Shown one piece after another: positions 7,389 to 34,504 of a DNA stretch of 64,000 bases. This DNA is from an uncultured Bacteroidota bacterium (GTDB lineage: Bacteria > Bacteroidota > Bacteroidia > 2-12-FULL-35-15): assembly GCA_903847205.1 (NCBI GenBank), contig CAINDA010000005.1, forward strand, positions 1-64,000. The letters run 5' to 3'. Under the pieces are notes generated by a model that had not been told where the DNA came from, searched no databases, and was given only the letters and a program-made list of their open reading frames with translations. Within the stretch, counting starts at the first letter, position 1. Each line of letters starts with the position of its first letter. The position numbers and the translations under genes were made by a program.

Positions 7389-7461
7389 GATTCCGTAGCT
7401 CAGCTGGTAGAGCATTACACTTTTAATGTAGGGGTCCTGGGTTCGAATCCCAGCGGGATCA
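7389..7461 (+). tRNA. tRNA-Lys (TTT)
   Basis: A 73-nt cloverleaf. The acceptor stem GATTCCG/CGGGATC has one G-T wobble, the D-arm is GCTC/GAGC, the anticodon stem TTACA/TGTAG holds the loop CTTTTAA (anticodon TTT), the T-arm is CTGGG TTCGAAT CCCAG, and the discriminator is A. CCA is not encoded. Its 3' end is the attachment site of the 27 kb island. The 24 bp from the T-arm onward are repeated at 34481, so the functional 3' half now comes from the element. Confidence 0.97.
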
Positions 7462-7462
7462 C
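7439..7462 (+). repeat. Attachment site, left copy (attL core)
   Basis: The 24-bp core from GGGTTCGAATCC to GGGATCAC is identical to 34481-34504. It is the 3' end of tRNA-Lys. Sequence diverges at once on both sides, as expected of a site-specific recombination core. Confidence 0.93.
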
Positions 7463-7624: not shown

Positions 7625-8782
7625 ATGAAATATAAAATGAAAATACTATACTGGCTTCGTAAAAATAAGCTGAATGCAAGTAATGAAGCGGCCATTTATT
7701 GCCGGATAACTGTTAACGGCATACGTTCAAACGATTTCAGTACGAATGTCTTTACAAAACCTGAATCCTGGGACTGTAAAAAACAGCGTATCAAAGATGA
7801 TATGAAGCAAAGTACATTGCAAGCTATCCGGCAAAAACTTTCTGCTATCCATTTAGATTTAGAAATGAAAGACATTCCTGTTACTGCTGATTTGATAAAA
7901 AATATTTACACAAAAAAAGAAACCCTTATTTGTAAATATACAATGAATGAACTTTTTTCGGAATACATTGAAGCTCACAAAAAAAAACGCGCACCAGGTA
8001 CAATAAAAAATTACAATGTAAGATATAATTTACTTGTTGATTTTTTAGAGGCAGAAAGGAAAAGTAATATCACAGCGGAATTATTTAATGTCAATTATGC
8101 AAAACAATATTTCAACTGGCTGTGCAAAAAAGAATCTCACAATTACAGTGTCCGAGCTGTAGAGATATGCCGGTCCGTTTTGCAATATGCTTTTGAAAAT
8201 GATAAAATAAAACTAAACCCTTTGGCGGCTCTGAAGCTTAAAAAAAATGCACCCAAAAAAATTGTATGGCTGACGCCTGAAGAAATTAAATTAATGGAAG
8301 ATCAGATTTTCGCATCAGGATCATTACAAAAAACGGCAGACTTGTTTTTATTTCAATGTTATACTGGTTTAGATTACGGCGATTTAATGAGCGTTAAATT
8401 ATCTGACGTGCAAATGTTTCAAGGAGATAAATATATTATCAAGCACCGTTTAAAATCAGGCGAGGAATCAATAATACCATACACTGAAAAGATAGATAAG
8501 CTATGGAAAAAATATGAATATAAATTACCTCATTTCGAAAATCAAACTTACAATCGATTTTTAAAAGAGGTTGCATTAATTTTGGAAGTCAATAAGCTGC
8601 TGACTACCCATATAGGGCGAAAAACATTCACAATGAATAAGCTTAATCATGATGGATACAGTATGGAGGCAACGAGTAAAATGGCGGGACACAGCAGCGT
8701 AAAAACAACGGAAACGCACTATGCAAAAGTAAACCTCAGCTTAATTAAAATGGAAACAATAAGACTTAATGCTTTCAAATAA
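7625..8782 (+). CDS. Tyrosine recombinase / phage integrase
   Basis: A 385-aa protein. It has an N-terminal arm-binding domain (about 1-100), a SAM-like core-binding domain (about 105-200) and a catalytic domain (about 215-380). Catalytic residues visible are K277 (RLKSGE), H329-x-x-R332 (THIGRK), H356 (GHSS) and nucleophile Y366 (TETHY). The usual first Arg is replaced by Asp (D250 in CYTGLDYGDL), a departure also known from some Bacteroidota recombinases such as IntDOT. It sits 160 bp from attL, as expected for the enzyme that inserts the island. ATG 7625 is used, although a second ATG lies at 7637. Confidence 0.92.
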   Translation: MKYKMKILYWLRKNKLNASNEAAIYCRITVNGIRSNDFSTNVFTKPESWDCKKQRIKDDMKQSTLQAIRQKLSAIHLDLEMKDIPVTADLIKNIYTKKETLICKYTMNELFSEYIEAHKKKRAPGTIKNYNVRYNLLVDFLEAERKSNITAELFNVNYAKQYFNWLCKKESHNYSVRAVEICRSVLQYAFENDKIKLNPLAALKLKKNAPKKIVWLTPEEIKLMEDQIFASGSLQKTADLFLFQCYTGLDYGDLMSVKLSDVQMFQGDKYIIKHRLKSGEESIIPYTEKIDKLWKKYEYKLPHFENQTYNRFLKEVALILEVNKLLTTHIGRKTFTMNKLNHDGYSMEATSKMAGHSSVKTTETHYAKVNLSLIKMETIRLNAFK

Positions 8783-10191: not shown

Positions 10192-11652
10192 TTAATTGTT
10201 GGTTGTTTTTGCTGATAAATAATAAACTGTTGAACCGATTTTAAGCCTGATCGTCCGGTTCGGGCTGGTGGGACTTACTGTAAATACGCTGTCCGCTCCC
10301 CATGTAACTTGGCCGAGATTATCGAACTGCTCCCGTATAACGCCCTGCCCATCGGATAAAATAATATTATTTGAAAGGGACGAACTAAGACCGGAAATGG
10401 ACGCGCCGATTATTGTATTATAATTCCCCGTTGTAAGCCCTACCGCGGTATTGTAGCCTATTACGGTATTCCCTGCCCCGGTTGTGTTGTTTTGTAGTGT
10501 TTTATAACCTAATGTAGTGTTATTGCTCCCGGTTGAATTATTAAATAAAGTTTGATAACCTGCGACCGTGTTACCTGTGCCTGTATTACTTGCTATCGTT
10601 CCGCTGCCTGCGAACGCCTGATAACCTAATACAGTGTTGTCATTCGTAAATGGCGTAGCTGTGCTTGTATAAGACTGCATGGCTGCATACCCAATTGCAA
10701 CGCCGTTACTTCCGGCTACACAGTTACCTAATACATTGTAACCCAAAGCTGTATTATTTGCGCCTGTTGTTATATTTGGAATTGTTTGATAGCCTACGGC
10801 TGTGGTAAAACTTCCTGTTGTTATGCTGACTGCTCCGCCGTTTCCTATAACCGTATTTGATGCAACTGAGTTATGACCTTTTCCCACGATCACGCCGTTA
10901 ACGGTCAAATCACTATTAAAAGTTTTTGAGCCTGCGAAAGTCTGCGTCCCGGTGCTAACTGATCCGCCAAAGCTTGCGCTGGCATATTCTAAATTTAAAG
11001 TGCTGCCGGAAAGTGTCGCGCCGTTTGCATTGGGTGAAGCACCAAAGGCTGCTAAAGCTCCGATTGAACCCGCTGCGCCTGTAGCTCCGGTATTTCCATT
11101 GGTTCCATTGCTCCCTGCTGCGCCTGTAGCTCCGGCTATGGAAAAACTCCAACTGCTAAAACTTCCCGCCCCATTTATTAAATCAATATTTACATATAAA
11201 GCATTTCCAGTAAATGAAGTTATTACGCCCTCCATCCAGTCTGACGGGGTTGAGGATATGCACCTAATTCTGCCCCCGCTTATAAAAGAAAACTGTGAAT
11301 TGGGTTGGTTAGTAACAAATACTTGACTGCCTAAACTTATCGTGTTAAGCGAAGCAGCTGTAAGCCCGGAATATCCTAATCCTGCCGAACCTGTTGAACC
11401 TGTTGAACCTGTTGAACCTTTCGCACCTGTTGAACCTGTTGAACCTGTTGAACCTATTAAATGCCCGTCTTTAATTCCGCTGTATATTTTATACATATCG
11501 GAATTATTAAAATTATAGCTGTGAAATGCAGTATCTCCATAGATTCCTAAATAAATTTTGAAATTATCGGAGTTATGGAAATCAGAATAAGGCTGTGCTT
11601 TTGAGAGAGAAAAAAAAGACAGGAAAGCAAAAAATAAAATTATCTTTTTCAT
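10192..11652 (-). CDS. Collagen-like / YadA-head-like fibre protein
   Basis: A 486-aa protein. Residues 1-19 are a Sec signal peptide (ends SLSKAQ). Two near-copies of NNSD-x-(F/Y)KIY-x-GI follow (about 26-60), then a Gly-x-y tract rich in GST triplets (about 68-93) and a second Gly-rich patch (about 175-198). The C-terminal half (about 260-430) carries repeats such as NTALGYNVLG, NTVLGYQAF and NTTLGYKTL, typical of trimeric YadA-head beta-rolls. This is the build of a trimeric adhesive fibre or spike. It lies among the late genes, so a host-binding virion protein is the likely role, but the signal peptide is unusual for a virion component. Confidence 0.7.
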   Translation of the reverse strand: MKKIILFFAFLSFFSLSKAQPYSDFHNSDNFKIYLGIYGDTAFHSYNFNNSDMYKIYSGIKDGHLIGSTGSTGSTGAKGSTGSTGSTGSAGLGYSGLTAASLNTISLGSQVFVTNQPNSQFSFISGGRIRCISSTPSDWMEGVITSFTGNALYVNIDLINGAGSFSSWSFSIAGATGAAGSNGTNGNTGATGAAGSIGALAAFGASPNANGATLSGSTLNLEYASASFGGSVSTGTQTFAGSKTFNSDLTVNGVIVGKGHNSVASNTVIGNGGAVSITTGSFTTAVGYQTIPNITTGANNTALGYNVLGNCVAGSNGVAIGYAAMQSYTSTATPFTNDNTVLGYQAFAGSGTIASNTGTGNTVAGYQTLFNNSTGSNNTTLGYKTLQNNTTGAGNTVIGYNTAVGLTTGNYNTIIGASISGLSSSLSNNIILSDGQGVIREQFDNLGQVTWGADSVFTVSPTSPNRTIRLKIGSTVYYLSAKTTNN

Positions 11653-15501: not shown

Positions 15502-16152
15502 TTAGTCAACCATTGGAGTTGTGTTAAACACAATCTGCACTTTTTCTTTTGCATCAAGGGTTACTTTCAACTGCATGATCCAGCTTAACAGCATCTGCAT
15601 TTTAACGGTTAACAGTCCGTCTTTATACTGTGTGTTTCTTTCGTTACCGCTCAAATCAATTTCCGCAGGGATATAAGATGAACCATAACCTTTGTAAAAG
15701 CGGGCTTCTAAAGCGCAGCTGTTTATTACTGCATCCGATTTATCGCCTGCTGCATCATATCCGGTAATGTTAAAACCGAATGTCAAAAGGCCATTGCCTT
15801 TGTTGATGCTTCCGATAAGCTTATTTAAAAGTTTACCTCCGAAACCGCATGAATCAACAACTGTAACGCCTCCGGGCAAAGCTCCGAAAGTATCATTGTT
15901 CAAAAATGCAACTTCAAGCGGGCCGCCGCCTACGTTTGTGTTTTCAATGGTGATAGTGATTTTTTTAGGAACACTTTTAAAATCCATAACCTCACCTGTG
16001 TTAATTGGAGTGATTGCAGTTTTACCCGCATCTGTATTGGTAAGGTCAGTTATTACCTGACGGTTCGCTAATGTTTTTGTGTTGGAATCCAAAGCTCCTG
16101 GAGCTAAGTTCATCGGCTTTGCTGACAGAGCCACTGCATTTGATGGTACCAT
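15502..16152 (-). CDS. Candidate major capsid protein
   Basis: A 216-aa soluble, beta-rich protein (KITITIENTNVGGGPLEVAF, LTFGFNITGYD). It lies between the packaging ATPase module and the membrane-protein cluster, the usual place of the capsid gene in tailless membrane phages. A terminator stands on each side, with an operator-like repeat array just upstream, so it is transcribed as its own unit. That is consistent with very high expression. The length is short for a double jelly-roll (PM2 P2 is about 270 aa), so a single jelly-roll or a smaller variant must be considered. This is inference from context, not homology. Confidence 0.55.
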   Translation of the reverse strand: MVPSNAVALSAKPMNLAPGALDSNTKTLANRQVITDLTNTDAGKTAITPINTGEVMDFKSVPKKITITIENTNVGGGPLEVAFLNNDTFGALPGGVTVVDSCGFGGKLLNKLIGSINKGNGLLTFGFNITGYDAAGDKSDAVINSCALEARFYKGYGSSYIPAEIDLSGNERNTQYKDGLLTVKMQMLLSWIMQLKVTLDAKEKVQIVFNTTPMVD

Positions 16153-16230
16153 TTTTTAAAATTTAGGTTTGTTTGATTTTTATGTTTGATTTCAGGCAGT
16201 AAAATTATATCAGTGAAAACGGCCATATCC

Positions 16231-16300
16231 AGCAAAGCACGCCAAAGACAGCTAAAGACGATTTAATCGGGTTAAAGAAGATTAAAGCAGATTTTGAGCA
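16231..16300. promoter_or_regulatory. 10-bp direct-repeat array upstream of capsid gene
   Basis: Seven consecutive 10-bp units with exact spacing: agcaaagcac, gccaaagaca, gctaaagacg, atttaatcgg, gttaaagaag, attaaagcag, attttgagca. AAAG recurs at positions 4-7 of five of them. One unit per helical turn suggests cooperative binding of a phage regulator on one DNA face. A related array occurs at 21181-21220. Confidence 0.6.
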
Positions 16301-16302
16301 AT

Positions 16303-16325
16303 AAAAAAGGCACTCATGGAGTGCC
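16303..16325 (-). terminator. Terminator overlapping the end of the 62-aa gene
   Basis: GGCACTC-ATG-GAGTGCC with a T-tract on the minus strand (A6 at 16303-16308). The TGA stop of the 62-aa gene lies inside the stem. It ends the early-late packaging operon before the capsid gene. Confidence 0.85.
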
Positions 16326-16502
16326 TAAATGTTCGAAAATTTTCCTTACCTGATCGGGTGTGTACTTTTTGCCGCGCTGCTTTCCTATATCCTCATCAAA
16401 GGGCTTTAACCACTCGTTAAAGGCTTTTGCACCGATGTTATAAAGAAAACAAAGCTGATATTTATTATATGCTTTTATAGGAACTTCTTTTTCTTCACTC
16501 AT
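16314..16502 (-). CDS. Small conserved phage protein, possible DNA-binding
   Basis: A 62-aa protein with a compact helix-turn-helix-like pattern (AYNKYQLCFLYNIGAKAFNEWLKPF, then YTPDQVRKIFEHLGTP). I have the impression that similar short proteins recur in Bacteroidota phages, but no function is known to me. It lies 1 bp after the packaging ATPase gene. Confidence 0.6.
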   Translation of the reverse strand: MSEEKEVPIKAYNKYQLCFLYNIGAKAFNEWLKPFDEDIGKQRGKKYTPDQVRKIFEHLGTP

Positions 16503-16503
16503 A

Positions 16504-17112
16504 TTAATTTTGTCCTGTTACAATAAGCTTGTGGTAATAAGGGTTTGCGCTTGCTTTTACTTCCTCATACAACTTCAGCGCGTCATCATAATAACCGCGC
16601 ATTTTAGTTTTCCTGCATTCAGGGTGATCCTTTGTTTTGAAGATTTCAATCAAATCAATTAAGCCAAAGAGTTTGGGAGGCGCGAAGCTAAAGCCGTGAA
16701 ACATAAATACCATATCAATATTTTTCTGCTTGCTGTCTATCATAAGCCTGCTCATGGGCTTTGGTACAAGGTTTTCCATGTGCTTGTAAGCATCTTCGAA
16801 AACAATAAACGTATTGTACATGCTGTCAAGCTGATTTATATATGTAGTTAAATCAGGCATTTCGTCCGGTTCAACCCAGCAGCGGTAAACGCCTTTATTC
16901 CATCCCTGCAGCTTTGCAATCGGAAGCCGGGCAATATCGCGGTACGAAGCATGATCGAGGGTGTCAACGATTAAAACCTTCATATCTTTTTTTAAATAAC
17001 CTCTTATAAACCCAGGAAGCCCGAAAGCAGGATTTCCCCGGAGATATTCAGTTTTGCCGGAACCGCGTTCGCCGAAAATAGCCGTAACCTTATTAAATTC
17101 AGGCTTTTCCAT
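16504..17112 (-). CDS. Genome-packaging ATPase (A32/FtsK-HerA-like)
   Basis: A 202-aa protein. Walker A GERGSGKT lies at residues 14-21 and Walker B FIVFED at 102-107, with hydrophobic strand plus acidic pair. A short C-terminal region includes MVFMFHGFS, a likely sensor strand. Small size, one ATPase domain and a position beside the capsid gene match packaging ATPases of tailless membrane phages (P9/A32 type) rather than a large terminase. It would pump DNA into preformed procapsids. Confidence 0.75.
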   Translation of the reverse strand: MEKPEFNKVTAIFGERGSGKTEYLRGNPAFGLPGFIRGYLKKDMKVLIVDTLDHASYRDIARLPIAKLQGWNKGVYRCWVEPDEMPDLTTYINQLDSMYNTFIVFEDAYKHMENLVPKPMSRLMIDSKQKNIDMVFMFHGFSFAPPKLFGLIDLIEIFKTKDHPECRKTKMRGYYDDALKLYEEVKASANPYYHKLIVTGQN

Positions 17113-21395: not shown

Positions 21396-21701
21396 CTAAG
21401 TAAAAATTAACCGTTTGTTTTCTTTGATTATTTTAGTTTCAAATGGAAACTCTTCTTTAGGAACCTGCTGAATTTGATCCATCAATGCACCTGAGCCGGT
21501 AAAAACAACATGATAAGCAGTGCCGGAAGTTATCTGCAAATGCAGACATTTGCCGGTTCCTTTTCCTTTGTCAAATTTTGAATCAACAATTCTGAAATCA
21601 TGTACAGCAATCGCGCTATTTAAAATAGTGTCCATTTCTATTTTTGTTCCCACAAAAGCTTTTGATGCTGTTTCTATTCCGAAATCTTTAAACTTTTTCA
21701 T
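21396..21701 (-). CDS. Hypothetical protein overlapping the DGR reverse transcriptase gene
   Basis: A 101-aa soluble protein (KGKGTGKCLHLQI, YHVVFTGSGALMDQIQQVP). Its start overlaps the end of the RT gene by 14 bp. The position next to RT is where an accessory variability protein might stand, but the strand-rich sequence does not look like the helical Avd bundle. A small nucleic-acid-binding fold is possible. Function unknown. Confidence 0.5.
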   Translation of the reverse strand: MKKFKDFGIETASKAFVGTKIEMDTILNSAIAVHDFRIVDSKFDKGKGTGKCLHLQITSGTAYHVVFTGSGALMDQIQQVPKEEFPFETKIIKENKRLIFT

Positions 21702-22647
21702 GCTGTTTTTTATTTTGAAGATTTATGCAGTTGCCGTGAACCATCCAGCCATGATAAGAAGCAATAGACTGTGCATTCGGATTTTTAGAGATCATGCGGA
21801 AATAATTCTTTTTTATTCCTTTGCGGAGCCTGGTATATTTATGACGGAATACATACCCTAAAAAATCAATGCCGCGGGATTCAACCGGGAATACCTGATA
21901 ATTATTCTTTACTGTTAATTGTAATTCCTGCTGCAGGTAATCAGTAATGTCAGCAAGCATCTTATGCAGATAAGGTTTGTTATCGGATAGTATTACCATA
22001 TCGTCAGCATAACGGAAATAATATTTAACTCCTTTAATTTCTTTTATCCAGTGATCGAAATAGGTGAGATAAAAATTTGCAAAATACTGGCTTAGATAAT
22101 TTCCAATCGGCAAACCTTCAGCACTGTCTATGATTTCATCTATCAATAACAGCAAGTCACTGTCTTTAATTTTTTTCCTGAGAAGGGATTTTAAAATATC
22201 ATGATTTACATTTGGATAAAACTTCTTAATGTCCAATTTAAGACAATAGCGCGTTCCCTGCGTATCAATTAATGCTTTGCGAACCGATCGCATTGCTGCG
22301 TGTATTCCTTTACCTTTTATACAGCTGTAAGTGTCAGCGGTGAAAGATGCAGTAAACATTTTTTCTAATACATTCATAATTGCATGATGAACAATGCGGT
22401 CAGGAAAATATGGAAGGCAGAAAATTTCCCTGGGCTTTGGATCAAGTATATTAAATGTTTTGTACGCAGAGGTTTTGTATGTTTTAGTTTTAAGCATTTC
22501 ATGCAAGGCTTCAATTTTGCTTTCTGAATTTTTATCGAACAGCTGTACGCCGTATTGTTTGCTTTTGCCCTTCCTCGCTTTCTTATCTGCAAGATTCAGG
22601 TTTTCAATACTGATAATTTTTTCGTACAAATTATTTTTTCTTTTCAT
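21688..22647 (-). CDS. Reverse transcriptase of a diversity-generating retroelement
   Basis: A 319-aa protein. RT motifs in order: LKLDIKKFYPNV (catalytic Asp about 139), GLPIGNYLSQYFANFYL (182-187 GNYLSQ, the DGR hallmark in place of the QGxxxSP of other RTs) and FRYADDMVIL (YADD 213-216). The C-terminal thumb contains GIDFLGYVF. It copies the template RNA with adenine-specific errors and the cDNA replaces the variable repeat of a target gene. The template repeat lies directly upstream (22752-22830) and three targets beyond it, all on the same strand. Confidence 0.96.
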   Translation of the reverse strand: MKRKNNLYEKIISIENLNLADKKARKGKSKQYGVQLFDKNSESKIEALHEMLKTKTYKTSAYKTFNILDPKPREIFCLPYFPDRIVHHAIMNVLEKMFTASFTADTYSCIKGKGIHAAMRSVRKALIDTQGTRYCLKLDIKKFYPNVNHDILKSLLRKKIKDSDLLLLIDEIIDSAEGLPIGNYLSQYFANFYLTYFDHWIKEIKGVKYYFRYADDMVILSDNKPYLHKMLADITDYLQQELQLTVKNNYQVFPVESRGIDFLGYVFRHKYTRLRKGIKKNYFRMISKNPNAQSIASYHGWMVHGNCINLQNKKQHEKV

Positions 22648-22751
22648 TTGCCTTTGCTTTCCAGGTCGTTTTCATTTTCATTACTAACGCCCTTTGTTTT
22701 GATTTTTATTTTTTGCCATGCTGGCAGGGTTTACACTGTTAATCATTTTCC

Positions 22752-22830
22752 CAGCTAAGGTGGGAGCTGCAGTTCGTATTCGTGTTCCAGTTGTCGTAAT
22801 TCGAGTTCGAGAAGCTGACGCCTGACGCAC
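22752..22830 (-). ncRNA. DGR template repeat (TR)
   Basis: Read on the minus strand the repeat runs GGC GTC AGC TTC TCG and then AAC TCG AAT TAC GAC AAC TGG AAC ACG AAT ACG AAC TGC. It has six AAC/AAT codons (N at six positions), the classic adenine-rich design. It aligns to 22938-23011, 23327-23397 and 23703-23773. Mismatches fall almost only at template A. Flanking 8-bp inverted repeats TACACTGT (22732-22739) and ACAGTGTA (22843-22850) could fold the TR RNA into a closed loop. It is not an ORF of its own, since it ends in a stop after a few codons. Confidence 0.94.
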
Positions 22831-22862
22831 AAGACAGCTCTTACAGTGTACAACCTTATCGG

Positions 22863-23240
22863 CTACATCAAATAATATTCAATGTATAATTCTTTGAATT
22901 GTTCTATTGCATATAAAACAAGCTCTCTCGATTTAAAGCAAAGGCGGGAGCCGCAGTACGCATACGCGCACCAGTAGTCGAACCTCGAGCGCGAGAAGCC
23001 GACGCCCGACGGCTTTTCTTTAGTTGCTTCAATTTCAAACAAAGGCTGATATTTATATTCGCTGCTGTCATTCCAGTTTGGCGTCCAGCCTTCATTCAAT
23101 GCCTCAGTTATTGTTATCAGCTTATAATGTGCTGTTAATGCTTTTCTGTGTTTCTCCGGCATTGCTGAAACATCGGGCAGTATATCAGGATTAATATTTA
23201 ATGCCTTACAGGCATCTTCGTAAGTTTTAATTTTTTTCAT
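22863..23240 (-). CDS. DGR target protein 1
   Basis: A 125-aa protein. The N-terminal conserved part (KTYEDACKALNINPDILPDV, then EALNEGWTPNWNDSSEYKY) is followed by the variable region SGVGFSRSRFDYWCAYAYCGS and the constant RLCFKSRELVLYAIEQF. Compared with the template, the six Asn codons became R, R, Y, C, Y and Y. One change in VR1 (third base of AAT to G) is not at an adenine. The protein probably presents a variable binding surface, and the whole fold is shared with two tandem paralogues. Confidence 0.93.
   Translation of the reverse strand: MKKIKTYEDACKALNINPDILPDVSAMPEKHRKALTAHYKLITITEALNEGWTPNWNDSSEYKYQPLFEIEATKEKPSGVGFSRSRFDYWCAYAYCGSRLCFKSRELVLYAIEQFKELYIEYYLM
22938..23011 (-). repeat. 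DGR variable repeat 1 (VR1)
   Basis: Aligns without gaps to the template at an offset of 184 bp. Changes sit at template A positions in the AAC/AAT codons plus AGC to GGC and CAC to CGC, with one exception (T to G). Confidence 0.92.
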
Positions 23241-23248
23241 TTCGCTTT

Positions 23249-23614
23249 TTATTTAATTATAAAAATTTGATTGTAGATTTCAATAAACTGAGTTCCGGCA
23301 TACGTTGCTAATTCAGAAGACTTAAAGCAAAGGCGGGAGCCGCAGCGCGTAAACGCGCACCAGCCGTCGTAACCCGAGTCCGAGAAGCCGACGCCCGGTT
23401 TATAGTTAAAAAACCAAGGGTAATATTTTGTTTCAGCGCTATTTGTCCAATCCGGCTCCCAGCCTTTGTTTAATGCCTCTGTAATTATCATCAGCTTGTA
23501 ATTGGCAATCATTGCCTTTCTGTACTTCTCCGGCATTGCTGAAACATCGGGCAATGTGCCGGGTTTAATTTTTAATGCTTTACAGGCATCATCGAAAGTT
23601 TTAATTTTTTTCAT
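23249..23614 (-). CDS. DGR target protein 2
   Basis: A 121-aa paralogue of target 1 (KTFDDACKALKIKPGTLPDV, EALNKGWEPDWTNSAETKYYPWF). The variable region reads GVGFSDSGYDGWCAFTRCGS, followed by RLCFKSSELATYAGTQFIEIY. The six template Asn became D, G, G, C, F and R, all through changes at adenines. There is no signal peptide. It lies 8 bp from target 1. Confidence 0.93.
   Translation of the reverse strand: MKKIKTFDDACKALKIKPGTLPDVSAMPEKYRKAMIANYKLMIITEALNKGWEPDWTNSAETKYYPWFFNYKPGVGFSDSGYDGWCAFTRCGSRLCFKSSELATYAGTQFIEIYNQIFIIK
23327..23397 (-). repeat. DGR variable repeat 2 (VR2)
   Basis: Aligns gap-free to the template at an offset of 573 bp. AAC to GAC, AAT to GGT, AAC to GGC, AAC to TGC, AAT to TTT and AAC to CGC are all adenine-templated. 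The GAC and TAC codons between them are unchanged. Confidence 0.93.
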
Positions 23615-23624
23615 TTCGCTTTTT

Positions 23625-24110
23625 TTATTTAATTATTAAAAATTGATTGTAGATTTCAATAAACTGAGTTCCGGCATACATTGCTAATTCAGAAGATTTA
23701 AAGCAAAGGCGGGAGCCGCAGCTCGCATACGTGCGCCAGCAGTCGTAACCCGAGCGCGAGAAGCCGACGCCCGGTTTGTAATTATTAAACCAAGGGTAAT
23801 ATTTTGTTTCACTGCTATCTGTCCAATCCGGCTCCCAGCCCTCATTTAATGCACGCGCAATTATTATTAACTTCATATATGCATGCGCCGAAAGCATATC
23901 AGCATCTGTGCCTTTATATGCTAATAAAAAAGAATAGTCGGGAGCTACTTCAAGTTTATTGCAGGCATCTTCAAAGGTTTTGATGCGATCTGTTATTTTT
24001 TGTGATAGAACTTCTTTGCCGAATAAATTTTCAAGCAGTTCTTTTCCTTTTTTGTCCGCCTCTTTATGGGCTTTAAAGACATTGGTTTTAGTGATGTTCA
24101 GGGTTTCCAT
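23625..24110 (-). CDS. DGR target protein 3 (N-terminally extended)
   Basis: A 161-aa paralogue with about 40 extra N-terminal residues (METLNITKTNVFKAHKEADKK). The conserved body is RIKTFEDACNKLEVAPDYSFL, then ARALNEGWEPDWTDSSETKYY. The variable region is GVGFSRSGYDCWRTYASCGS, followed by RLCFKSSELAMYAGTQFIEIY. The six template Asn became R, G, C, R, Y and S. The extension may add a distinct partner or localisation. Confidence 0.93.
   Translation of the reverse strand: METLNITKTNVFKAHKEADKKGKELLENLFGKEVLSQKITDRIKTFEDACNKLEVAPDYSFLLAYKGTDADMLSAHAYMKLIIIARALNEGWEPDWTDSSETKYYPWFNNYKPGVGFSRSGYDCWRTYASCGSRLCFKSSELAMYAGTQFIEIYNQFLIIK
23703..23773 (-). repeat. DGR variable repeat 3 (VR3)
   Basis: Gap-free alignment to the template at an offset of 949 bp. 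Every difference from the template in the core lies at an A. VR2 and VR3 share the flanking CCG codon before GGC, whereas VR1 has TCG. Confidence 0.93.
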
Positions 24111-24807: not shown

Positions 24808-25251
24808 AATCTCAGCCGTATAAAGGAATACCGCAACCGGTGGTATTTAATAGGTTATCATCCTGAACACAAAGCCGTACGCACGTTTGGAATCGACAGG
24901 ATTGACAATCTCAAAACAGAGAAAGAAAAATATGTGATGGTTGACAATTTTGATCCCATCACTTTTTTTAAACATTCCTTCGGGATTTCAATCACCTATA
25001 ACAAGCCGGAAGAAGTGGTGTTGTCCTTTTCGCCTTTGGAAGGCAAGTACATCAAAAATCAAAGCATTCATACTACTCAAAAAATTTTAACTGATAACAA
25101 TAAAGAAGTACGCATCAGCATTAATGTAATGGTTTCGTATGAATTACAAATGCAGCTATTGAGTTATGGTGATCAGGTGAAAGTTATAAAACCGGCTTCA
25201 CTGGCGAAAACGGTGAAGAGCATGCTTCAAAAGGCTTTGGATAGGTATTAG
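24808..25251 (+). pseudogene. Truncated WYL-domain transcriptional regulator
   Basis: Only the C-terminal about 148 residues remain. The frame is open from 24808 just after a stop and reads EYRNRWYLIGYHPEHKAVRTFGIDRI (core WYL motif), then the WCX extension ending VKSMLQKALDRY. The N-terminal helix-turn-helix and the first part of the WYL fold are missing. A GTG at 24934 could start a shorter frame, but without a DNA-binding domain. The break lies next to the start of the phage operon, so it probably marks an insertion or recombination junction. Confidence 0.8.
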
Positions 25252-25990: not shown

Positions 25991-27028
25991 TTATATTTTT
26001 GTTCTATACTTAGATGGCAATGCCGGCTGGTACAAACTTAATTCATATCGTAATTTAGTGTAAATTGAATCTTCTTTACCGCGTACTTGCCCAATAAAAA
26101 TGATCTTTCCTCTCAGACTTAATAAAAATGTATCGATGAGTTGCTCATCAGCTTCTTTTACTTTATAATGTTTAATCGCGGCTTTTTCTAAACCATTCCA
26201 TTTCGCATCATTTAAAATAGCCCGGATTTTACGGATATAACGCCTGTCAACATTTGGTTTTTGGTTTACTTTAATTCCTGTAACGATTTGCCGGCTGAAT
26301 TTACTCTGCATTCTAAACTTACGTTCGTTGATCAGAAATCCGTTTTCTGCAGCTGAATTTTTTATGGCCGCAATTGCTTCTTCAGAAATCAGGAGCTCAG
26401 ATGAAAAAGTTAAATCATCAGCATAGCGGGTATAATCCAAATTGTACCTCCCTGCAATTGCAATAAGTTGTTCATCTAACCTAAGGCAGTATAAATTTGA
26501 AACAACCGGTGAGGTTGGGGCGCCCATGGGTAAACGTTTATTCCAGCAGCATATCAGAGCAAGACAGGTGGCAAGGTCCTCATTAAAATTGAAAGGAGAA
26601 GTTAGAAAAAGTGCTTTTACCTGGTTAGCGGAAATGGCATGAAAGAAATCTTTTAAATCAATATTAAGAACGTAATTTTTTCCAGTATGACTGGATGCAT
26701 TGCTAAGTATGGTGCGTGGATGCGTTTCATCTTTTAAGGATTTAACAAAGCCATAAGCTGATGAAGGTTTTATTTTACAATAAACAGCCTGCAAATAGGT
26801 GTTTAAATTTTTTTGAATAAATATTAAATTTTCTTTCGGAGCTTCAATTGTCCTAAAACCGCCTTTTGCCTTCGGAATTTTAAATGTCCGGTAGCTCGCT
26901 TTTTCAATAGTGCGTTTGAAACTTGAAAACTCATAATCGAAAAGCCGCGACAATTCAAATGCATTTTTCAAACTCAGAAATTGAATTGCGTTAGAATTTA
27001 TGGTATAAATATCCGGTTTTGGATTCAT
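25991..27028 (-). CDS. Retron-type reverse transcriptase
   Basis: A 345-aa protein of normal retron-RT length. Signatures in order: SNASSH (110-114, the retron NAxxH motif), LNIDLKDFF (catalytic Asp 124), LPMGAPTSPVVSNL (166-179), TRYADDLTF (YADD 202-205) and QIVTGIKV (VTG 249-251, retron-specific). It makes msDNA from the adjacent msr-msd RNA, priming from a branch guanosine. The RNA gene (27038-27206) ends 10 bp before the ATG. I see no effector domain fused to it. Confidence 0.95.
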   Translation of the reverse strand: MNPKPDIYTINSNAIQFLSLKNAFELSRLFDYEFSSFKRTIEKASYRTFKIPKAKGGFRTIEAPKENLIFIQKNLNTYLQAVYCKIKPSSAYGFVKSLKDETHPRTILSNASSHTGKNYVLNIDLKDFFHAISANQVKALFLTSPFNFNEDLATCLALICCWNKRLPMGAPTSPVVSNLYCLRLDEQLIAIAGRYNLDYTRYADDLTFSSELLISEEAIAAIKNSAAENGFLINERKFRMQSKFSRQIVTGIKVNQKPNVDRRYIRKIRAILNDAKWNGLEKAAIKHYKVKEADEQLIDTFLLSLRGKIIFIGQVRGKEDSIYTKLRYELSLYQPALPSKYRTKI

Positions 27029-27037
27029 GTTAAAAAA

Positions 27038-27206
27038 AAGGGAAGAACCGTTAATGATTATCTAAAAAAATTTTGATAGTTAAATGATTTTTCTTTTCGA
27101 AAAATTATTTAACTATCACTCAAAGCCACATTGTGACAATGGCTGCAGGTACACAGCCTATTAGCGTTAAGCCCGCTCATAATCTCTTTTAACGGTTCAA
27201 TCCCTT
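27038..27206 (-). ncRNA. Retron msr-msd RNA
   Basis: The a1 repeat (27189-27206) and a2 repeat (27038-27054) are inverted copies: AAGGGA-TT-GAACCGTTAA against AAGGGA-A-GAACCGTTAA. The msr part (about 27119-27188) has small hairpins, including GGCTG/CAGCC and an AGCCA...TGGCT stem. The msd part holds a 45-nt hairpin (27074-27118): a 20-bp stem starting TGATAGTTAAAT, one G-T wobble, loop TTTTC. Order msr, msd, RT on one strand is canonical. The exact RNA ends and the branch G are not determined. Confidence 0.9.
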
Positions 27207-27293
27207 ATATTTAAATTTTAAAATTCATTCTGACAATAGCCGGCCTTCCTCAATATCATTCATTTGGGAAAAACATTTAATCTAACTTATATA

Positions 27294-34480: not shown

Positions 34481-34504
34481 GGGTTCGAATCCCAGCGGGA
34501 TCAC
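34481..34504 (+). repeat. Attachment site, right copy (attR core)
   Basis: 24 bp identical to the tRNA-Lys 3' end at 7439-7462. The bases to its left are not tRNA sequence, so only the 3' fragment was duplicated. What follows on the right is the original tRNA terminator. Confidence 0.93.

Follow-up and report, generated by a model that had tools for sequence, protein, structure and literature searches.

The question raised by this locus is whether three small tandem paralogous genes, a fourth copy of part of their sequence and an adjoining reverse transcriptase (RT) gene constitute a diversity-generating retroelement (DGR) in which one template serves three targets, and whether such an arrangement is out of the ordinary. 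The window analysed here is a stretch of 64,000 nt from an uncultured Bacteroidota bacterium. We consider it highly probable (approximately 0.92) that the cassette is a DGR carried by an integrated virus-like element, in which A-mutated cDNA templated by the template repeat (TR) and a spacer RNA enters the variable repeats (VRs) of the three targets. In the proposed mechanism, the TR and the structured RNA after it would serve as the template for the RT, misincorporation would occur opposite template A, and retrohoming of the mutated cDNA would exchange the VR in any one of the targets.

All parts of the cassette lie on the minus strand, in the order target 3, target 2, target 1, TR, RT and a 101-aa ORF:

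23625..24110, minus strand: target 3 (161 aa, long type), which opens the array; ORF with a match to phrog_11581 (1.2e-38), VR in its C-terminal third
23702..23775, minus strand: VR3 (TR/VR alignment and blind scan)
23249..23614, minus strand: target 2 (121 aa), by windowed identity a chimera of targets 1 and 3
23326..23399, minus strand: VR2 (TR/VR alignment and blind scan)
22863..23240, minus strand: target 1 (short type, 125 aa); ORF
22937..23010, minus strand: VR1 (TR/VR alignment and blind scan)
22753..22826, minus strand: TR core, 74 nt (TR/VR alignment and blind scan)
22651..22760, minus strand: structured spacer RNA (covariation over 76 loci)
21688..22647, minus strand: DGR reverse transcriptase, 319 aa (PF00078, phrog_1423, motifs YADD and IGNYLSQ)
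21396..21701, minus strand: candidate accessory protein, 101 aa, with a 14-nt overlap with the 3' end of the RT gene (phrog_19665, locus conservation)

The VRs lie inside the target ORFs, close to the C terminus, and the RT next to the TR is intact and of the DGR type. The original prediction of a DGR in which one template serves three tandem paralogous targets was recovered, and the targets share a strand. In the 74-nt core alignment, VR1, VR2 and VR3 differed from the TR at 16, 17 and 16, respectively, of the 21 template A's, and at 1, 2 and 2 of the 53 non-A positions (Fisher p of 5e-11, 4e-11 and 4e-10 for the bias). The non-A mismatch of VR1 was a single internal T-to-G, and those of VR2 and VR3 were the two outermost 5' bases. 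As predicted, the codon table showed all six AAY template codons changed in each of the three VRs, and the core differed almost only at template A, with the TCG, GAC and TGG codons constant; a TGC codon was also constant across the TR and all VRs. The prediction had named a count of A against non-A mismatches on the four aligned repeats as a check, and this count placed the mismatches at A (p<1e-9). Judged from these alignments, the TR/VR mismatches are A-specific in all three VRs. A blind scan of the 13-kb region, in which position was not assumed and at least six mismatches at one template base with at most one elsewhere were demanded in 50 nt, returned exactly the three TR/VR pairs for A; the other three bases gave none, nor did any pair appear in 8 shuffles. 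A search of the 5.49-Mb assembly detected no further TR/VR copy or other target.

Four A-containing template codons, AGC, AGC, CAC and AGC, were replaced by the identical GGC, GGC, CGC and TGC in all three VRs. One fixed base at four TR-A sites in every VR needs either selection or a narrower converted tract, and since these codons are changed alike, the freely variable part would amount to approximately the central 12–13 codons. Across loci (191 TR–VR pairs), the A was changed in nearly every case at codon 0 (AGY; 180/181) and at CAC (197/200). The VRs read GGY at codon 0 and CGC at CAC, which matches the invariant or near-invariant Gly-Ser-Arg of the target proteins. The AGY and CAC sites were probably copied and then selected, because the non-A positions beside them match almost perfectly. 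Deterministic editing at the A's with fixed replacements was considered and set aside, the retention of invariant Gly/Arg residues by selection being simpler. Fixed synonymous differences (TCA/TCG and CTA/CTT) were confined to the outer margins of the copied tract.

Windowed identity indicated that target 2 resembles target 1 in its start and N-terminal half and target 3 from there on, through the C-terminal half and the VR into the downstream spacer; the switch point lies near conserved GW codons. By this measure, target 2 is a crossover chimera of targets 1 and 3. A single unequal crossover between two copies of a T3–T1 array would have yielded T3–T2–T1, expanding the array from two targets to three; the nearest relative in the genus (locus L096, RT 78% identical) has two. 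T2 and T3 hardly differ in the flanks of the VR, yet VR2 and VR3 differ at 8 of the 21 TR-A sites and at none of the 53 others (p=1.4e-5). Because VR2 and VR3 differ only at TR-A sites despite these near-identical flanks, the DGR has acted after the duplication that made target 2. On the RT tree, parsimony gave 14 changes for the three-target state (shuffles: mean 16.4, minimum 13), and three-target arrays are suggested to have arisen repeatedly. In another locus of the same genus (L097, RT 77%), the TR carries nine changes relative to the L096 TR, every one of them at an A (p=2e-6), and its two VRs fit the L096-type TR (13–14 A changes, 0–1 non-A changes) better than their own TR. Apparently, mutated cDNA copied from the L097 TR has overwritten that TR.

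These comparisons bear on the competing reading that survives best, namely, that the DGR is no longer active and that its VRs, products of past activity, have become fixed. The case of L097, in which a TR of this group has been ruined, speaks for it. In the window, however, the RT frame is intact, the TR is still A-rich, the non-A identity between TR and VRs has been kept, and VR2 and VR3 changed only at TR-A sites after the duplication of T2; we accordingly regard inactivity as unlikely.

The reading in which the cassette is a DGR was then placed among its homologues. RT searches gave 80 virus loci, 80 genome loci and 7 other genomes among the nearest 147; removal of duplicates and restriction to loci with an RT at least 60% identical and a detectable TR gave 107 loci, all of the same layout, with the TR approximately 200 to 90 nt before the RT. 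Target counts were restricted to the 84 loci with at least 2.5 kb upstream: two targets were present in 63 (75%), three in 17 (20%) and one in 4, these counts being lower bounds, since the scan covered 5 kb upstream and 3 kb downstream and demanded few non-A mismatches. Pooled over loci, the mismatch rate was 70% at A sites and 0.3% at non-A sites, the latter biased low by the scan rule. The first target was usually of the long type (median 154–159 aa) and the last usually of the short type (126–134 aa).

A second alternative, that the targets are ordinary paralogues and the ‘TR’ a decayed fourth copy, with differences produced by drift and gene conversion, draws some support from target 2, a recombination chimera which implies that recombination occurs. 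Drift, however, would not confine differences to one template base (p<1e-9), no other base yields such pairs, and the same layout stands beside an RT in 107 loci; this origin of the repeats is refuted by the A-specific pattern and retains hardly any credibility.

The RT matched PF00078 (RVT_1, 1.1e-19) and PHROG 1423 (phrog_1423, 5e-123), with the YADD and IGNYLSQ motifs present and the frame intact. Its closest counterparts in annotated phages are the RTs of crAss-like phages (~55% identical), one of which adjoins a tail gene whose annotation notes similarity to a tropism determinant. On the strength of these matches, we assign it to the phage DGR family. The weakest alternative, in which the repeats are coincidental and the RT is that of a group II intron, a retron or a DRT, has in its favour that the NCBIfam group II and Drt3a models score on the RT, but these scores fall far below the cut-offs, and the phrog_1423 match, the identity to crAss-like phage RTs, one of them beside a tropism-determinant-like tail gene, and above all the A-specific TR/VR pattern refute it. 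Compared with the crAss-like phage DGRs (for example, Blohavirus cr53_1, NC_055889), where the gene before the RT in cr53_1 encodes one large tail protein, the window has small targets; it also has an ORF of ~100 aa, a relative of which was not found in those DGRs.

The original prediction had set three targets on one template against the single target of the first DGR systems described. Three targets are nevertheless not unusual: 17 of the 84 homologous loci have three, and multi-target DGRs are well documented. Several VRs occur in 28.6% of 948 DGRs (PMC6642488), and DGRs with up to eight targets are on record (PMC10743442). Those of Treponema denticola, Stenotrophomonas and Leptolyngbya (NC_019683; one TR, three VRs) likewise combine one template with several targets (PMC6642488, PMC10743442); compared with them, the present case has small tandem paralogues and belongs to a phage-borne clade in which two targets are the rule. 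A three-target DGR as such is thus ordinary. The features that look new are those of the clade: the absence of a detected Avd, a conserved ORF, a covarying RNA and small targets without a recognized fold.

The spacer between TR and RT has a common structure in 76 divergent loci, comprising two hairpins, UGCC/GGCA and a longer one around GGGCGUU/AACGACC, and a long-range helix that links the 3' end of the TR (CCUAUGC) to GCAAAGG just before the RT start. In the window, the hairpins correspond to 22714–22726 and 22663–22693, and the long-range helix pairs 22754–22760 with 22651–22657, with mismatches, one pair being A-A (22756–22655). Over the 76 loci, 92.6% of cells in the 18 pairs were paired, compared with 78.3% in shuffled and at most 43.5% in slid alignments, and the covariation score was 0.453 against 0.175 shuffled. 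In the long helix, 87% were paired, with double changes at 2 of 6 pairs; in a swap test, the native partners formed a stronger helix than exchanged ones did (0/60; 6/300 among variants). Covariation thus gives strong support for the two predicted hairpins, and support for the predicted long-range helix is moderate. An Rfam search detected only a tRNA and no entry for the spacer RNA. In BPP-1, a structured RNA likewise lies between TR and RT, and this spacer recruits the RT complex and primes cDNA (PMC12875486). By analogy, the spacer RNA here may have a similar role, and cDNA would be primed from it as in BPP-1.

The gene avd is the usual accessory gene of DGRs. The original prediction had called the DGR complete, which needs qualifying in that avd was not found near the cassette. 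The Avd models (PF22296, PF05635) gave no match on the contig of the window, and of 18 related virus records 17 were likewise negative; the single match, in the remaining record, is distant from the DGR there. Directly after the RT, about 126 loci have a relative of the 101-aa ORF, the 14-nt overlap with the RT end being the most frequent arrangement, and an archaeal virus record also contains one. Sequence searches of Pfam and the PDB gave nothing significant for this ORF. Its structural model (pLDDT 89) is barrel-like, a predicted beta-barrel; the best fold rows were RuvB-like (DII) OB domains and SSBs at Z 5–6.3, below the caution level of 8, and Foldseek returned nothing with E<0.001. An OB-like fold is therefore only suggestive. 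The conserved ~100-aa ORF, which is unrelated to Avd, appears to take the place of Avd, and its product would do the job of Avd. A 2018 NAR survey of DGRs reportedly describes further accessory genes. The BPP-1 DGR (mtd, avd, TR, brt) shares with the window the A-specific TR-to-VR transfer and an RT downstream of the TR; it differs in that the window has no detected avd and a different conserved ORF after the RT, and three small targets instead of one tail-tip protein.

The targets matched no Pfam or NCBIfam family and belong to PHROG 11581, to which PHROG assigns no function. The model of target 3 had a pLDDT of 85 overall, with a confident helical N-terminal part and ~50 in the VR, and resembled uncharacterized proteins of crAss-like and other phages. 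No match to its fold was found in the PDB, and Foldseek and VIA gave nothing above noise; a C-type lectin fold, likewise without a PDB match, may or may not be present in the VR, which was modelled at only ~50 pLDDT. The three VRs may form three variable surfaces, and the targets would be binding proteins of the virus.

The cassette lies within a provirus integrated at tRNA-Lys, a 27-kb region (7439–34504) with the following landmarks:

7439..7462, plus strand: putative att site at the tRNA-Lys 3' end, formed by the first of two directly repeated 24-nt copies
34481..34504, plus strand: putative second att site, formed by the other 24-nt copy
7625..8782, plus strand: tyrosine integrase of the host element (PF00589 and arm domain; phrog_1)
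16504..17112, minus strand: probable packaging-type P-loop ATPase (weak phrog_2666 match; relatives in related proviruses)

No terminase, portal or tail assembly genes were found in this element. Matches to virion structural and tail-fibre families were obtained for a collagen-like repeat protein (10192–11652), and to virion lysozyme-type families for one small protein. A capsid candidate (15502–16152) had no detectable relative, hhalign performing no better than with shuffles, and neither it nor the ATPase was found in IMG/VR or annotated phages. Two relatives of the ATPase in related proviruses matched Pox_A32, below its cut-off. Checked against tailless membrane phages (double-jelly-roll), the element showed a weak fit of the A32-type ATPase, no terminase or portal, and the collagen-like gene with its tail-fibre matches. 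The likeliest reading is that the host element is possibly a tailless phage.

Proviruses with this small P-loop ATPase (window 15502–17112; L197, L198 and L199) occurred in 8 of 345 related genomes. L197 and L198 share the integrase, the P-loop ATPase and small ORFs with the element of the window, and two small ORFs adjoining the DGR are 62–73% identical to adjacent ORFs of L198. Both carry a Rep_trans protein, and L197 also a glucosaminidase; no DGR was seen in either. The cassette itself has its closest likeness in a Bacteroidota phage and prophage DGR clade (L016–L168), with a common RT family, TR position, 2–3 tandem small targets, spacer RNA and accessory ORF. Several of these relatives sit on terminase-bearing contigs, whereas the element of the window has a largely unrelated gene set; because of these terminase-bearing relatives, the cassette seems to move between element types.

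A retron (25991–27240, minus strand) adjoins the DGR element between the two att-like repeats. Its RT (345 aa) matched PADLOC retron RT models at 1e-99. Before it lies an RNA that folds strongly (z −7), contains a long hairpin and has ends complementary to each other. The region from 24.8 kb on contains a truncated-looking ORF (24934–25251), the retron, a DnaB-like helicase and an AbiEii protein, and is perhaps cargo or a second element.

We tentatively propose, at somewhat less than even odds, that a widespread Bacteroidota virus DGR clade operates without Avd, using the conserved spacer RNA and a ~100-aa, possibly OB-fold, RNA- or ssDNA-binding protein whose gene overlaps the RT gene at its end, and that its cassette has here moved into a tailless virus-like provirus. 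If this is true, hypermutation would act outside a tail apparatus. The targets of the clade are tiny proteins (about 120–160 aa) without a recognized fold, and the target 2 chimera and the apparently overwritten TR of L097 provide natural records of array growth and template loss. A clade in which Avd, an essential helper, has apparently been replaced would offer a way to study what mutagenic reverse transcription requires of its accessory protein.
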